A DNA stretch of 64,000 nt from Agromyces archimandritae (lineage in GTDB: Bacteria > Actinomycetota > Actinomycetes > Actinomycetales > Microbacteriaceae): the NCBI RefSeq assembly GCF_018024495.1, contig NZ_CP071696.1:62001-126000 (forward strand), in the 5' to 3' direction. How positions within the stretch are numbered: position 1 is the first letter of the stretch; every line of letters begins with the position of its first letter. The notes below the pieces were generated by a model. That model worked only from the letters and a program-made list of their open reading frames with translations, searched no databases and was not told the DNA's origin. The position numbers were made by a program, and so were the translations under genes. Below are positions 49,568 through 55,376 of this stretch, one piece after another.

Positions 49568-51646
49568 CTATGCGTCGATGCGGTCCCGTGAGAGCCCGGC
49601 GGCGCTCTCGACGATGAACTCCTTGCGCGGGGCGACCTCGTTGCCCATGAGGAGCTCGAAGACCCGTCCGGCCTGCTCCGCGTCCTCGACCCTGACGCGC
49701 CGCAGCGTCCGATGCCGTCGATCCATCGTCGTCACCGCGAGCTGTTCCGCATCCATCTCGCCGAGGCCCTTGTACCGCTGGATCGGATCCTGGTACTTGC
49801 GGCCGCGCTTCTTCAGATCGGCGAGCACGGCGTTCAGCTCCGCCTCCGAGTACGTGTAGATCGTCTCGTTCGGCTTCGAACCCGGGTGCTGGACGACGAC
49901 CCGGTGCAGCGGGGGCACCGCGGCGAACACCCGCCCGTCCTCGATCATCGGACGCATGTAGCGGAAGAAGAGCGTCAGCAGCAACGTGCGGATGTGAGCG
50001 CCGTCGACATCGGCGTCGCTCATGATGATGACCTTGCCGTAGCGAGCCGTCGACAAGTCGAAGGTGCGACCGGAGCCGCCGCCGACGACCTGGATGATCG
50101 AGGCGCACTCGGCGTTGCCGAGCATGTCGGGCAGACTCGCCTTCTGCACGTTCAGGATCTTGCCGCGGATCGGCAGGAGCGCCTGGTGTTCGCTGTCGCG
50201 GGCGAGCTTGGCCGTGCCGAGCGCCGAGTCGCCCTCCACGATGAACAGCTCGGAGTCGGCGACGTCGTTCGACCGGCAGTCGACCAGCTTCGCGGGCAGG
50301 GTCGAGGACTCGAGGGCGTTCTTGCGCCGCTGCGTCTCCTTGTGCGTGCGTGCGGAGATGCGCGCCTTCATCTCGGCGACGATCTTCTCGAGGACGAGCG
50401 AAGTCTGGGCCTTGTCGTCGCGCTTCGTCGACGAGAAGCGCTCGCCGAGCGCCTTCGCGACGACCTTCGTCACGATCGCGCGCACCGCCGGGGTTCCGAG
50501 GACCTCCTTCGTCTGCCCTTCGAACTGCGGCTCCGGCAGGCGGACGGTGAGCACGGCGGTGAGACCGGCGAGCACATCGTCCTTGTCGATCTTGTCGGTG
50601 CCGGCCTTCAGGCGCCGGGCGTTCTGCTCGACTTGGGCGCGCATGAACTTCAGCAGGCCCTGCTCGAAGCCGGCGAGGTGCGTGCCGCCCTTCGGCGTCG
50701 CGATGATGTTCACGAAGCTCTTCACGATCGTGTCGTAGCCCGTGCCCCAGCGCAGGGCGATATCGACCTCGCATGTGCGCTCGACCTCGGTCGAGATCAT
50801 CGCCCCGCCCTCGGTGAGCACGGGGACGTTCTCCGTGAAGGTGCCCGAGCCGGTGAGGCGCCAGACGTCGGTGACCGGGCTGTCCATCGAGAGATGCTCG
50901 ACGAACTCGGAGATGCCGCCCTCGAAGTGGAAGCGGTGCTCCTCGGGTTCGTCGCCGCGCTCGTCCACGATCGTGATCGCGAGCCCCGGCACGAGGAAGG
51001 CCGTCTGCCGGGCGCGCCCGACGAGCTCCTCCAGTTGGAACTCGGCGCCCTTCGTGAAGATCTGCCGGTCGGCCCAGTAGCGCACGCGGGTGCCGGTGAC
51101 GCCCTTGGCGACCTTGCCGGCGACGGCGAGCTCGCTCGAGCGTTCGAAGGGCGCGAACGGGGCATCCGGGCTCGGAGCCCCCTCGTCGGCGAAGCGGCCC
51201 GGCTCGCCCCGGTGGAACGACATCGCCCACGTCTTGCCGCCCCGGTCGACCTCGACGTCGAGGCGCTCCGAGAGGGCATTGACGACCGAGGCGCCGACGC
51301 CGTGCAGGCCGCCGGAGGCCGCGTAGGAGCCCGAGCCGAACTTGCCGCCGGCGTGCAGCTTCGTGAACACGACCTCCACGCCGCTGAGGCCCGTCTTCGG
51401 CTCGACGTCGACCGGGATCCCGCGGGCGTGGTCGCGGACCTCGACGCTGCCGTCGGCGTGCAGCACGACCTCGATCTCCGAGCCGTGGCCGGCGAGGGCC
51501 TCGTCGACGGAGTTGTCGATGATCTCCCACAGGCAGTGCATGAGCCCGCGCGAGTCGGTCGAGCCGATGTACATGCCGGGTCGTTTGCGGACGGCCTCGA
51601 GCCCCTCGAGGACGGAGAGATGCCGGGCGGAATAGTCACTGCTCAC
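49568..51646 (-). CDS. parE: DNA topoisomerase IV subunit B (ParE-like)
   Basis: ATPase subunit, 692 residues. GHKL ATP-binding motifs are EIIDNSVDEALAGHG, VRDHARGIPVDV and SGGLHGVGASVVNALSE; the TOPRIM metal site is FIVEGDSALG with MSDADVDGAHIRTLLL; the C-terminal KGLGEMDAEQL is conserved. Start: GTG 51646 is preferred because TAGGCT lies 8 nt upstream; the TTG at 51655 overlaps that hexamer. A gyrase pair is expected elsewhere in the genome. Confidence 0.92.
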   Translation of the reverse strand: MSSDYSARHLSVLEGLEAVRKRPGMYIGSTDSRGLMHCLWEIIDNSVDEALAGHGSEIEVVLHADGSVEVRDHARGIPVDVEPKTGLSGVEVVFTKLHAGGKFGSGSYAASGGLHGVGASVVNALSERLDVEVDRGGKTWAMSFHRGEPGRFADEGAPSPDAPFAPFERSSELAVAGKVAKGVTGTRVRYWADRQIFTKGAEFQLEELVGRARQTAFLVPGLAITIVDERGDEPEEHRFHFEGGISEFVEHLSMDSPVTDVWRLTGSGTFTENVPVLTEGGAMISTEVERTCEVDIALRWGTGYDTIVKSFVNIIATPKGGTHLAGFEQGLLKFMRAQVEQNARRLKAGTDKIDKDDVLAGLTAVLTVRLPEPQFEGQTKEVLGTPAVRAIVTKVVAKALGERFSSTKRDDKAQTSLVLEKIVAEMKARISARTHKETQRRKNALESSTLPAKLVDCRSNDVADSELFIVEGDSALGTAKLARDSEHQALLPIRGKILNVQKASLPDMLGNAECASIIQVVGGGSGRTFDLSTARYGKVIIMSDADVDGAHIRTLLLTLFFRYMRPMIEDGRVFAAVPPLHRVVVQHPGSKPNETIYTYSEAELNAVLADLKKRGRKYQDPIQRYKGLGEMDAEQLAVTTMDRRHRTLRRVRVEDAEQAGRVFELLMGNEVAPRKEFIVESAAGLSRDRIDA

Positions 51647-51654
51647 GTCGGTCA

Positions 51655-51660
51655 AGCCTA
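51655..51660 (-). promoter_or_regulatory. Leaderless -10 TAGGCT of parE
   Basis: TAGGCT on the minus strand, 8 nt, then GTG 51646. Confidence 0.45.
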
Positions 51661-51784: not shown

Positions 51785-52021
51785 ATGACCCAGTTCGCCG
51801 AGACCACCGGAACCGCAGTCGAGACCGAGACCGCCTACGAGTTGACCGCCCTCGACCGCTGCGATGCCTGCGGTGCGCAGGCGTACATCCGGGTGCAGGT
51901 CGCCAACGGCGAACTCCTGTTCTGCGCCCACCACGGCCGGAAGCACCAGGAGAAGCTCTCCCAGATCGCCCACAGCTGGCACGACGAGTCCGCCAGGCTG
52001 CTCGCCGATACCGCGCGCTGA
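51785..52021 (+). CDS. DUF7455 family small zinc-ribbon-like protein
   Basis: A 78-residue actinobacterial protein. ALDRCDACGAQAYIRVQVANG then ELLFCAHHGRKH shows a CxxC plus CxHH pattern, consistent with one metal site; the rest is helical. Function unknown; it is commonly found close to sigA or topoisomerase genes in actinobacteria. GGAGGAGG precedes the ATG, with TACATT near 51745 as a possible -10. Confidence 0.85.
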   Translation: MTQFAETTGTAVETETAYELTALDRCDACGAQAYIRVQVANGELLFCAHHGRKHQEKLSQIAHSWHDESARLLADTAR

Positions 52022-52073: not shown

Positions 52074-52802
52074 CTATTCGCCGAGCGACTCGGCGGCCAG
52101 GATGGCGGCGCGAGCCTGCCGTGCATGGATATCCGCCCGAAGGGCCTCCTCGCCCGGCTCGTAGACGAGACCCGCCCGGGCCGCCATCGTGCCGAGCAGG
52201 GCGTCGGCGAACGCAGGGTTCTTGGCCAGCACCGGCCCGTGCAGATGCGTGCCGAACGTTTCGCCCATGACGACGCCCTCCTGCGCCGATCCACGGCCGT
52301 TGCCGACCCCGGCGAGCACCCGGCCGAGCGGCGAGCCCTCGGCCTGAACGTAGTCGCGGTGCCGGTTCTCGAAGCCGACGAGGGTGCCGAAGCGCGGGCT
52401 CTTCACGACGAGATCACCCGTCGTGCGGGCGCTGCGAGGCACCGCGCGCCCGGGAAGGATCCCCAGCCCCTCGACGACGGAGCCGTCGGCGAGCTCGATG
52501 CCCCACGACAGCAGTTCCCAGCCGGTGCCGATCGCGAGGATCGGCACGCCGACGGTCGACCACTCACGGAGTCGCTGCTGCATGCCGTGCAGCACTTCGG
52601 CGCACGCGGCGAGCGATGCATCGCTGCCCGATCCGATCACTACCGCGTCCGCATGCTCCGGCAGCGCGGTCGCATCCGACACCCGCACGACGGCCGCGTC
52701 GAGCCCGGCCCAGCGTGCACGTGCCGCGAGGACCTTCGCATTCTGCGCGTCGCCGTTCGCGTCGAGCAGCTCCGGCAGGATCGAGACGATCTCGAGGGTC
52801 AT
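52074..52802 (-). CDS. GatD-like glutamine amidotransferase lacking the catalytic cysteine
   Basis: Canonical GatD is the glutaminase partner of MurT and supplies ammonia to amidate lipid II D-Glu. This 242-residue protein keeps the family framework: VVIGSGSDAS (for IGGGQD), ADGSVVEGLGILPGRAV, TLVGFENRH and FGTHLHGPVLAKNP with the catalytic His (H186). The nucleophile elbow, normally V-C-G-G-Y-Q, reads AIGTGWELL, so Gly92 stands at the Cys position; the only cysteine is C67. Glutaminase activity is therefore not expected. The ATG overlaps the murT-like stop (ATGA). It could be a scaffold or a repurposed subunit. Confidence 0.88.
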   Translation of the reverse strand: MTLEIVSILPELLDANGDAQNAKVLAARARWAGLDAAVVRVSDATALPEHADAVVIGSGSDASLAACAEVLHGMQQRLREWSTVGVPILAIGTGWELLSWGIELADGSVVEGLGILPGRAVPRSARTTGDLVVKSPRFGTLVGFENRHRDYVQAEGSPLGRVLAGVGNGRGSAQEGVVMGETFGTHLHGPVLAKNPAFADALLGTMAARAGLVYEPGEEALRADIHARQARAAILAAESLGE

Positions 52803-54055
52803 TCCGCTCCCGTCAATCCGAGGTGGGCGCGCGTGCGGCGCATGGAGTCGGCGGTGAAGACGATCGTCTTGACGCCGCGCGACGGCGCCGGCAGCGCGAG
52901 GAAGTCATCGATCGCGCGCCCGAGATCCGGCTCAACCCGGTCGATGCGCACGCCGTCGTAGGCGAGCATGAGGGCCGCCTCGGCCGACTTGGATCCGGTG
53001 ACGATCGCGACTCGGCCGAGCGAGGAAGCATCCACCGGCCAGAAATAGCTCGGGTCGCGCACGTCGGAGCCGATCGCGAAGAGCACCTGCTCGGTTCCAG
53101 GCTCGAGGCCGTCGATGTTCAGCTGATAGCTCGCCGGGTTCTGCACGAGCACGAACTCGACCTCGTGGCCGCGCACGGTGCGCCGCTCGCCGCGGCCGAA
53201 CACGGCCGGAATGGCGCTCAGGGCGTCGGCGGCCCGCGGCCGGTCGAAGCGGTCGCCGAGCACGGCCCGGGCCGTCGCATAGGCGGCCGCGGCATCGACC
53301 GCGTAGTGGATGCCGCGCGCCGGCAGACCGACCTCGACGAGCGTCCCGCGATCGTCGAGCACCGCATCGCGGCCGGCGGTGCGGACGACGCGGACCCCCT
53401 CGCGCTCGGGCAGACGCGTCGCGGCCGTCCTCGCGTAGCCGAGCCCTCGCGGCGCCGCGGCGAGCACCTGTTCGGAGACGCCGTAACGACCCGTCCTGAC
53501 GCCCTCGGCCAGCCCGGCCGCGAGCTCCTCGAGATACGCGTCGTCGGCGTTCACGATGACCTTCTCGGTGGCCCGGGCGGCGATCTTCGCCAGCATCCCG
53601 GCTACCATCTCGGAATCGTGGAAGCGGTCGATCTGATCGACCATGACGTTGGTCAGACAGACGATGCGCGCATCCACACCCTGCATCACGAGCGCGCCGT
53701 GACCCTCGTCCATCTCGAGCACGGCGACGTCGCCCGGCACCCGGCCGCGCCAATCGGCCTGCTCGAGCAGCGCGGAGGTGAGCCCCTGGCTGATGTTCGC
53801 CGTCGACGGGTTCGTGAAGACGTCGACGCCGTGCGCGCGCAGGATCGCGACGAGCATCTTCGTCGTCGTCGACTTGCCGCTCGAGCCCGACACCACGACC
53901 AGGCCCTGCGGGAAGCCGGAGAGGGTCTTCCGCAGGTATCCGGGCGCGATCTTGTTCACGACGAGGCCCGGAACGGCCGAACCGCCGCCGGGCTTCCGGA
54001 GCCGGGCGAGGAACCTGACGAATCTGCCGACGGCGATCGCCGGCGCGTAGCGCAC
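52799..54055 (-). CDS. MurT-like Mur ligase without the zinc ribbon
   Basis: A 418-residue Mur ligase. N terminus RFVRFLARLRKPGGGSAVPG is MurT-like; the ATP loop is VVSGSSGKSTTTKM (residues ~55-67), with NPSTANISQGLTSALL, VLEMDEGHGA, NVMVDQIDRFHD and VIVNADDAYLEEL following, and a C-terminal ligase domain (VFGRGERRTV, LNIDGL, RDPSYFWPVDASSL). Canonical MurT has a Cys4 zinc ribbon in the middle domain; here the corresponding stretch (RYGVSEQVLAAAPRGLGYAR onwards) has no cysteine, and the protein has only one Cys overall. GTG 54055 begins 7 nt after sigA. The likely acceptor is a muropeptide D-Glu alpha-carboxyl. Confidence 0.88.
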   Translation of the reverse strand: MRYAPAIAVGRFVRFLARLRKPGGGSAVPGLVVNKIAPGYLRKTLSGFPQGLVVVSGSSGKSTTTKMLVAILRAHGVDVFTNPSTANISQGLTSALLEQADWRGRVPGDVAVLEMDEGHGALVMQGVDARIVCLTNVMVDQIDRFHDSEMVAGMLAKIAARATEKVIVNADDAYLEELAAGLAEGVRTGRYGVSEQVLAAAPRGLGYARTAATRLPEREGVRVVRTAGRDAVLDDRGTLVEVGLPARGIHYAVDAAAAYATARAVLGDRFDRPRAADALSAIPAVFGRGERRTVRGHEVEFVLVQNPASYQLNIDGLEPGTEQVLFAIGSDVRDPSYFWPVDASSLGRVAIVTGSKSAEAALMLAYDGVRIDRVEPDLGRAIDDFLALPAPSRGVKTIVFTADSMRRTRAHLGLTGAE

Positions 54056-54062
54056 CGGCGGC

Positions 54063-55376
54063 CTACTCGAGGTAGTCGCGCAGCGACTGCGAACGGGACG
54101 GGTGGCGGAGCTTGGCCATCGTCTTCGACTCGATCTGGCGGATCCGCTCGCGCGTCACCCCGAAGGTGTCGCCGATCTGGTCGAGGGTCTTCGGCATCCC
54201 GTCGCCGAGGCCGAAGCGCATGCGGATCACGCCCGCCTCGCGCTCGGAGAGCGAGTCGAGCAGGCTCTCGAGTTGCTTCTGCAGCATCGTGAACCCGACC
54301 GCGTCGGCCGGCACGACCGCCTCGGTGTCCTCGATGAGATCGCCGAACTCGCTGTCGCCGTCCTCGCCGAGCGGGGTGTGCAGCGAGATCGGCTCGCGGC
54401 CGTACTTCTGCACTTCGACGACCTTCTCGGGCGTCATGTCGAGTTCCTTCGACAGCTCCTCGGGCGTGGGCTCGCGGCCCAGGTCCTGCAGCATCTGCCG
54501 CTGCACGCGGGCGAGCTTGTTGATGACCTCGACCATGTGCACGGGGATGCGGATCGTGCGCGCCTGGTCGGCCATCGCACGCGTGATCGCCTGGCGGATC
54601 CACCACGTCGCGTACGTGGAGAACTTGAAGCCCTTGGTGTAGTCGAACTTCTCGACCGCGCGGATGAGGCCGAGGTTGCCCTCCTGGATGAGATCGAGGA
54701 ACTGCATGCCGCGACCCGTGTAGCGCTTGGCGAGGCTCACCACGAGGCGGAGGTTCGCACCGAGCAGGTGGCTCTTGGCGCGCTGGCCGTCGCGGGCCAC
54801 CCACTGCAGCTCGCGACCGAGCTTCGTCCGCTTCTCGGAGTCGGCCATGTGCGAGAGCTTCTCTTCGGCGAAGAGACCCGCCTCGATACGCATCGCGAGC
54901 TCGACCTCTTCGGCCGCGTTCAGCAGCGCGACCTTGCCGATCTGCTTCAGGTAGTCCTTGACGGGGTCGGCCGTGGCGCCCGTGATCGTCGTCGAGTAGA
55001 CGGGGACGTCGTCGTCCTCGTCGACCGCGCGCAGCACGAGCGCACCGGTCGGATGCGGCTCGACGGCCGGCTTCGTCTTGTCGTCGTCGCCCGAGTCTGC
55101 CGCGTCGTCGGAGTCCGTGTCGATGTCGACCTCGACCTCTTCCTCCTCGGCAGCCTCGTCGGCCTGCTTGCCCTTGGCCTTCGTGGAGGTGCGCTTGGCG
55201 CCCTCCTTCGCCGTGCCGGCCGTCTTCTTCGCGGCGGGCTTGGCCGCAGGCTTGGCGGCGGCCTTCGCGGTCGACTTCGCGGGCGCCGCCTTCGCGGCAG
55301 CCGACTTCGCGGCCGCGGTGCCCTTCGCCGCCTCGGTCTTGGTCTCTTCGGCCTTCGTACTCGTCCGACTCGCCAT
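54063..55376 (-). CDS. sigA: Primary RNA polymerase sigma factor SigA/RpoD
   Basis: The housekeeping sigma-70 factor, 437 residues. A Lys/Ala-rich, then acidic N-terminal region (~110 residues) precedes region 1.2 ([20 protein letters not shown]), region 2 ([40 protein letters not shown] for -10 recognition), region 3 and region 4 ([40 protein letters not shown]). All are canonical. It would read the TANNNT -10 elements seen throughout the window with help from RbpA. It leads an operon with the murT- and gatD-like genes. Confidence 0.96.

Follow-up and report, generated by a model that had tools for sequence, protein, structure and literature searches.

The window analysed here is a 64,000-nucleotide stretch of Agromyces archimandritae DNA (contig NZ_CP071696.1, positions 62,001 to 126,000 of the forward strand), and our subject is a pair of genes on its minus strand that we consider as a candidate amino-acid ligase of group B peptidoglycan. 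A GatD-like protein of 242 amino acids (52074..52802) and a MurT-like ligase of 418 amino acids (52799..54055) are encoded by open reading frames (ORFs) that overlap by 4 bases. The GatD-like protein matches GatD of Staphylococcus aureus over residues 6-230 of 242 (phmmer, E 8e-31) and scores 65.9 bits against PF07685 (cut-off 27). With 48.7 bits the MurT-like protein exceeds the cut-off of 24 for PF08245, it scores below that of PF08353 MurT_C (22.2 bits, cut-off 25), and it can be aligned with MurT of S. aureus and of Streptococcus pneumoniae. Both proteins lie far below the cut-offs of the corresponding NCBIfam models (120.8 bits against 450 for GatD and 81.8 bits against 800 for MurT).

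Residues of the GatD-like and MurT-like proteins

When the GatD-like protein was aligned with S. aureus GatD, the nucleophile Cys94 was found to be replaced by Gly92 (codon 52527..52529), the surrounding residues reading ..LAIGTGWELL in place of ..LTICGGYQFL. The sole cysteine of the protein is C67. Both points had been made in an initial annotation of the sequence and are borne out by the alignment, as is the presence of the IGSGSD, EGLGIL, GFEN and GTHLHGP motifs. The same annotation took H186 to be the catalytic histidine, which is incorrect: the equivalent of S. aureus H189, in the HGP motif, is H188 (codon 52239..52241), and this residue is retained in the window. H186 is the extra histidine of GTHL, a position occupied by tyrosine in all 51 rows of the alignment described below that keep the nucleophile cysteine.

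The MurT-like protein has the ATP-binding P-loop (GSSGKST, residues 57-63; 53867..53887), a Mur middle domain and, at Asp334 (codon 53054..53056), the equivalent of S. aureus MurT D349. Its AlphaFold model (mean predicted local distance difference test score 90.4) matches Mur-type ligases over residues 1-415, with CphA1, MurC and MurT tied for the top place; this comparison informs on the fold and shows no function. Residues Ser309, Gln311 and Asn313, which lie in the segment S-Y-Q-L-N (residues 309-313; 53117..53131), are near-invariant in the main cysteine-less clade (0.97, 0.95 and 1.0 of 65 rows) and are mostly other residues in the cysteine-bearing relatives. All 51 cysteine-bearing rows have threonine at P-loop residue 58. 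In addition, the loop preceding Asp334 (DNAAD in S. aureus), which the S. aureus authors tie to substrate binding (PMC6113224), is shorter by 3 residues in every one of the 65 main-clade rows when compared with all 51 cysteine-bearing rows.

There is no CxxC motif in the MurT-like protein, and hence no Cys4 ribbon, as the initial annotation had stated. That ribbon loss follows the group B wall, a check it had proposed, was not sustained, since 40 of the 51 cysteine-bearing rows are without CxxC and a second cysteine-less type has two CxxC motifs in 9 of its 10 rows. Ribbon loss was consequently rejected as a marker: it occurs in cysteine-bearing relatives and not in this second type. According to the S. 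aureus structure paper, the zinc finger is present in only a subset (PMC6113224).

The initial annotation had also called for a check for a second, canonical MurT/GatD pair, and none was found in the A. archimandritae genome. The GatD-like gene gives the single match of its kind in this genome at E <= 10. Beyond the MurT-like gene of the window there is one weak match (34% over residues 51-192, E 3.4e-8), which is probably another Mur ligase. Both genes of the pair are under purifying selection, with a median ratio of nonsynonymous to synonymous substitution of 0.30 for the GatD-like and 0.23 for the MurT-like gene (8 loci, 28 pairs each). Because of this selection, and because the cysteine loss is common to the whole clade, the pair does not appear to be decaying.

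Cysteine loss and the sigA-GyrB/ParE interval

We searched 149 Microbacteriaceae genomes for GatD-like and CofE-like genes. A GatD-like match at E <= 0.001 was obtained in 117 of the 149 genomes, leaving 32 without. An alignment of 126 rows was then assembled from 80 Microbacteriaceae pairs, 20 stretches from the order and 30 further loci, minus 4 duplicates (L114, L119, L131 and L139). The nucleophile column of this alignment contains C in 51 rows, G in 47, A in 13, H in 8, S in 3, N in 2 and T in 2. The cysteine is missing from 75 of the 86 Microbacteriaceae rows, the other 11 keeping both cysteine and histidine, whereas both residues are kept in all 40 rows that represent other families of the order. 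All 51 cysteine-bearing rows hold the histidine as well; among the 75 cysteine-less rows it is kept in 44 and replaced in 31. Cysteine loss is therefore a trait of the family Microbacteriaceae. The proposal of the initial annotation that this loss follows the group B wall is too simple, for it fails in Leucobacter, as discussed below. At the named loci, none of 79 GatD-like proteins carries the cysteine, a biased count given that these loci are the best 80 of 453 and that the query was built from cysteine-less MurT proteins.

To place the losses we used a MurT tree of 126 rows, 108 of which carry a cysteine label, with 18 loci (mostly near-copies) omitted and 18 named loci added. Cysteine loss requires two changes on this tree. 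Holding all cysteine-less rows as one group was rejected by the approximately unbiased (AU) test in a 54-row set (p 0.017), a value that is modest and involves long branches. A single origin is thus disfavoured, with the MurT tree itself giving warning that long branches meet, and the loss probably arose twice; two origins are favoured, not proven.

The second cysteine-less type (L034-L043) has histidine at the cysteine site in 8 of 10 rows (LFTHNALEVLG, with GTSLIGP) and glycine in 2; its CxxC pairs are mostly retained, and sigA is present on the stretch in 9 of 10. Among the best 120 matches, its close relatives include proteins from Glaciihabitans, Schumannella, Galbitalea and a Leifsonia sp. 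In three genomes of 1.4-1.7 Mb (G143, G011 and G087; L276-L278) the GatD-like protein is reduced to 186-192 amino acids beside a MurT-like protein of normal length (403-406 amino acids), which suggests that the ligase requires its partner even in strongly shortened form.

In the window the pair lies between two genes of the minus strand that were named by inspection and used as search queries, a sigA-type sigma factor gene (54063..55376) and a GyrB/ParE-like gene (49568..51655). Among the 80 Microbacteriaceae pairs, sigA was present on the same fetched stretch for 66 of 69 cysteine-less pairs and for none of the 11 cysteine-bearing pairs, and in 63 of those 66 the sigA match ends no more than 153 bases from the start of the MurT-like ORF. 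Of the three cysteine-less pairs without sigA, L055 and L057 are second copies beside a sigA-side pair in the same genome; the third is L043.

The interval was also read in 40 genomes picked because they were pairless or had only a cysteine-bearing, canonical or much-diverged pair. It is empty in 11 of 11 genomes with cysteine-bearing pairs only. Of 26 pairless genomes, 19 have a CofE-like gene in the interval and 6 have none; in the one left (L282) the interval is cut by the end of the contig, and the CofE-like gene sits on another contig. The last 3 of the 40 have a MurT-like gene beside a strongly diverged GatD-like neighbour. Partners in the 19 CofE-like intervals are an ATP-grasp protein (17), a racemase (11), an EctB-type diaminobutyrate (Dab) aminotransferase (2) and MurJ (1). 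The CofE-like protein belongs to PF01996 (50.4 bits in the one tested, cut-off 25), the ATP-grasp to PF14397 (two tested) and the racemases to PF00842/PF01168 (three tested), while the EctB-type protein (one tested) and MurJ exceed their NCBIfam cut-offs.

In total 190 intervals were read, a biased mixture of named loci, fetched pairs and the 40 chosen genomes with a few duplicates. GatD and MurT occur without other bridge-type genes in 93, with a racemase in 51, with an ATP-grasp in 5 and with EctB plus a racemase in 2, and MurT occurs alone in 1; the remainder comprise 19 CofE-like sets, 1 interval with both kinds (L040) and 18 with none.

CofE-like genes of at least 57% identity were found in 21 of the 149 genomes, all of them within the 32 that have no GatD match; three remoter CofE-like genes (39-40%) occur together with a pair. 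The other 11 of the 32 comprise 4 with MurT-like genes (3 beside a diverged GatD-like gene, 1 partial) and 7 with neither. Exclusion is sharpest in one genus (g78), which is Microbacterium by tree placement beside named loci. Here the pair is present in 14 of 79 genomes and the CofE-like gene in 65 of 79, the two sets being exact complements with an overlap of 0 (8e-16 under independence, and the genomes are not independent). All 8 of these 65 CofE-like genes that were examined adjoin sigA. The CofE-like protein is thus a candidate for a second family of peptidoglycan bridge ligases, one that excludes the MurT/GatD-like pair.

Several further features of the interval were recorded. The CofE-like protein is about 231 amino acids long where it stands beside sigA, usually with an ATP-grasp gene (L245, L247, L250, L260, L263, L283 and L284-L291). 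Racemase-type genes are present in 65 of the 190 intervals. At L187 (7021-7710 and 7710-8768) an alanine racemase is split or duplicated, with one gene encoding mostly the C-terminal domain and the other the full N-terminal barrel, and such adjacent genes possibly encode a heterodimeric racemase for D-ornithine (D-Orn), D-Dab or D-lysine (D-Lys). As a marker for a D-Orn bridge the racemase pair proved not to be clean, being present in Leifsonia aquatica, the wall of which we take to contain Dab. It is absent from the interval of Frondihabitans, for which D-Orn is reported (PMC5945732). An EctB-type diaminobutyrate aminotransferase lies in the interval in 4 of 190 cases (L263:745-2064, L244, L157 and L181), and in one genome of CofE type there is a MurJ-type flippase gene (L246:1529-3115). 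In L262 and L279 (G045 and G108), from a genus with neither ligase system, the stretch from sigA to the GyrB-like gene contains a transporter that by inspection resembles the amino-acid ABC type. L205, a record with the title Planococcus sp. APC 4015, has a sigA interval of Microbacteriaceae type, and its title or assembly is probably mislabelled. In the window itself, the interval also contains a conserved 78-amino-acid ORF on the plus strand (51785..52021), presumably DUF7455, the translation of which has matches in many sigA intervals.

Pair phylogeny and the bridge amino acid

To compare the history of the pair with that of its surroundings, a tree was built from the flanking genes (SigA, PAC2 and GyrB-like; 35 rows). 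The flank tree unites Agreia with Subtercola and Herbiconiux gentiana (support 99/99). In the MurT-like tree of the same loci, Agreia groups instead with Frondihabitans, Frigoribacterium, Curtobacterium, Salinibacterium and Microbacterium (100/100), and the MurT-like data reject the flank grouping (AU p 1.1e-6). The GatD-like tree recovers the same 12-row clade (100/100) and likewise rejects the flank grouping (AU p 5.9e-7); it is the cleaner test, because the clade had been named from MurT trees.

The clade corresponds to the diamino acid reported for the bridge. Agreia has L-Dab and D-Orn, Frondihabitans D-Orn and Subtercola Dab (PMC5945732), while Frigoribacterium has D-Lys, Salinibacterium Lys and Orn, and Cryobacterium Dab (PMC7033078). 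Agromyces is described as B2gamma with Dab (PMC5217419), and a single D-Dab bridge is described for Clavibacter michiganensis (PMC9603630). With these genus-level data, all 4 genera that contain Orn or Lys fall in the Orn/Lys clade, and none of the 4 Dab-only genera (Subtercola, Clavibacter, Cryobacterium and Agromyces) does. Curtobacterium, Leifsonia, Herbiconiux and Plantibacter were left out of this count. The phylogeny of the pair thus agrees with the diamino acid of the bridge, D-Orn/D-Lys or Dab, and departs from that of the flanking genes. The position of the former catalytic histidine is divided in a similar way: all 12 loci of the Orn/Lys clade have Lys, Gln or Gly there, and of the 23 others 19 retain the histidine and 4 have another residue. 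A gene for an EctB-type Dab aminotransferase (53% identity) is present elsewhere in the A. archimandritae genome; 15 of 18 other genomes of the genus likewise have one.

Proposed function of the pair and its relation to known systems

From the residue change and its conservation throughout the clade, the sigA-side locus, the exclusion of CofE-like genes and the concordance between clade and bridge, we infer that the pair is probably a group B amino-acid ligase, which would join the bridge diamino acid, Dab in this organism, to the alpha-carboxyl of D-Glu. The MurT-like enzyme would activate this carboxyl with ATP, and the amine of the diamino acid, here probably D-Dab, would attack the activated group. 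The GatD-like subunit would have lost glutamine hydrolysis and been retained as a requirement of the active form of the ligase; the incoming amino acid may bind in its former glutaminase pocket. A precedent is provided by S. aureus, where GatD C94G is reported to abolish glutamine-dependent amidation and to keep NH3-dependent activity at pH 8.5, MurT alone being inactive (PMC3266927). Taken together, these two results indicate that a GatD without its cysteine can still be the required partner of a ligase that takes an amine from outside.

On this reading the pair would be one of several exchangeable sigA-side cassettes that set the bridge. We put forward, more tentatively, the broader suggestion that the sigA-gyrB interval of Microbacteriaceae could be a swap site for cross-link cassettes, at which at least two unrelated ligase families have displaced each other in the company of split racemases and a Dab aminotransferase. 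The two would be the MurT/GatD-like family, its glutaminase inactivated on two independent occasions, and the CofE-like family with its ATP-grasp partner. On this suggestion exchange at the single locus would change the bridge (from Dab to D-Orn in Agreia), and the dead glutaminase pocket, once occupied by L-glutamine, would hold the incoming diamino acid, in keeping with the histidine replacements of the Orn/Lys clade.

A number of observations weigh against an amino-acid ligase of the bridge. The flanking genes reject the Orn/Lys clade only weakly (AU p 0.034; 11 rows, without Salinibacterium), the tree groups were named after a first tree, and wall types were matched by genus rather than by sequenced strain. 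Depending on the species, Lys, D-Orn or Dab is reported for Microbacterium (PMC10757982), and the genera compared for wall type are ones that have the pair. The pair is not in every genome of the family: CofE-like genes replace it in 21 of 149, 7 of 149 have neither system, and interval L040 holds both kinds. Leucobacter is reported to be B-type with Dab (PMC4511665, PMC4804768). The Leucobacter genomes read have a cysteine-bearing pair and an empty sigA interval (the cysteine was read in L. exalbidus, L096, alone among the proteins listed); they gave no CofE-like match, and weak ATP-grasp matches (31-32%) in G012 only. A group B wall can therefore exist without cysteine loss. Finally, amidated D-Glu is among the muropeptide modifications assigned by mass spectrometry in C. 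michiganensis (PMC9603630), and the Clavibacter locus read (L177) is cysteine-less. The initial annotation had named the same cysteine loss in a D-Glu-amidating species as evidence that would overturn its reading, and this case touches on that point. Its proposal of a repurposed pair joining a bridge residue to D-Glu is partly supported: it gains strong indirect support from the locus, the exact complementarity with CofE-like genes in one genus and the clades that follow the bridge, and loses from the ribbon, Leucobacter and Clavibacter.

The Clavibacter observation, like the NH3-dependent activity of the C94G complex, would also fit a pair that is still a D-Glu amidase using free ammonia and making D-isoglutamine on unbridged stems. 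The C94G complex is, however, reported to have no such activity at pH 7.5 (PMC3266927), and an ammonia amidase leaves unexplained the racemase, Dab-aminotransferase and alternative-ligase genes of the same interval as well as the exact exclusion of CofE-like genes in one genus and the concordance of clade and bridge; we consider it unlikely. It is also possible to imagine that the pair adds another residue to the D-Glu alpha-carboxyl, such as Gly as the first bridge residue, with the diamino acid being added by another enzyme. Two-step bridges of this kind would fit the 5 of 190 intervals that combine MurT/GatD-like and ATP-grasp genes and the ATP-grasp genes of 17 of 19 pairless CofE-like intervals. 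They accord poorly with the 93 of 190 intervals in which the pair is the sole bridge-type gene among those searched, and with C. michiganensis, whose bridge is described as a single D-Dab (PMC9603630) and whose interval shows this pair only, so that this explanation seems rather unlikely.

We regard as very improbable a wall enzyme acting on a different substrate, for example the carboxyl of residue 3 or a polymer, in an interval that merely collects wall genes, given that the clades of the pair track the bridge amino acid and that its closest characterised relatives work on the D-Glu alpha-carboxyl of lipid II. Hydrolysis of glutamine with another nucleophile, for which C67 of the window protein could be invoked, is close to being discounted. 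No cysteine column is common to more than 20% of the 75 cysteine-less rows, a cysteine lies within 6 alignment columns of the site in only 3 of 75, and the catalytic histidine is lost in 31; moreover, the C94S and C94G variants of S. aureus GatD/MurT are reported to have no glutamine-dependent activity (PMC6113224, PMC3266927). A shifted nucleophile was rejected on the basis that no cysteine column is shared.

Joining of the bridge diamino acid to D-Glu is the function we favour for the pair. In the open-licence literature, with most subscription journals lying outside it, we found no report of an enzyme that loads the group B bridge onto D-Glu. The classification of these actinobacteria has for a long time drawn on group B peptidoglycan, and it is now possible to name a candidate pair, an unrelated set of genes (CofE-like and ATP-grasp) that replaces it, and one locus at which gene content accompanies wall type. 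Two proteins are thereby proposed for the step, and wall type could become predictable from sequence. If the proposal is true, the pair would clearly exemplify how a glutamine amidotransferase can become an amino-acid ligase when its nucleophile is lost, an event that probably took place in two lineages.

Among known systems, the closest relatives of the pair in the trees are the cysteine-bearing MurT/GatD proteins of other Micrococcales and of Leucobacter. These are also ribbonless but differ in having cysteine and histidine intact, and no sigA is present on the stretch in 11 of 11 Microbacteriaceae examples. The lipid II isoglutaminyl synthase MurT/GatD, which normally amidates the wall precursor with ammonia that it makes itself and of which structures are available (S. 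aureus 6gs2/6h5e, S. pneumoniae 6fqb, Streptococcus pyogenes 9sq9/9sqj), resembles the pair in its adjacent genes, Mur-ligase fold, P-loop, equivalents of D349 and H189, and GatD similarity over nearly the full length. In contrast to this enzyme, the window pair lacks the nucleophile cysteine and the ribbon, scores below the NCBIfam cut-offs, and has a DNAAD loop shorter by 3 residues and a new S-x-Q-x-N motif. The alternative sigA-side gene shares its Pfam family (PF01996) with CofE, the F420-0:gamma-glutamyl ligase, but the one read scores 28.2 against an NCBIfam cut-off of 180.65; this family differs from that of the Mur ligases, and it is from their mutual exclusion that we judge the CofE-like protein and the pair to do the same job. 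The Mur ligases MurC-MurF and cyanophycin synthetase 1 use ATP to link a carboxyl to an amino acid through an amide bond and, to our knowledge, have no GatD-like partner. MurE and MurF are described as having an N-terminal UDP-binding domain (PMC6113224). The pair shares the fold of these enzymes and, by analogy with them, may catalyse the same kind of ATP-driven amide formation.

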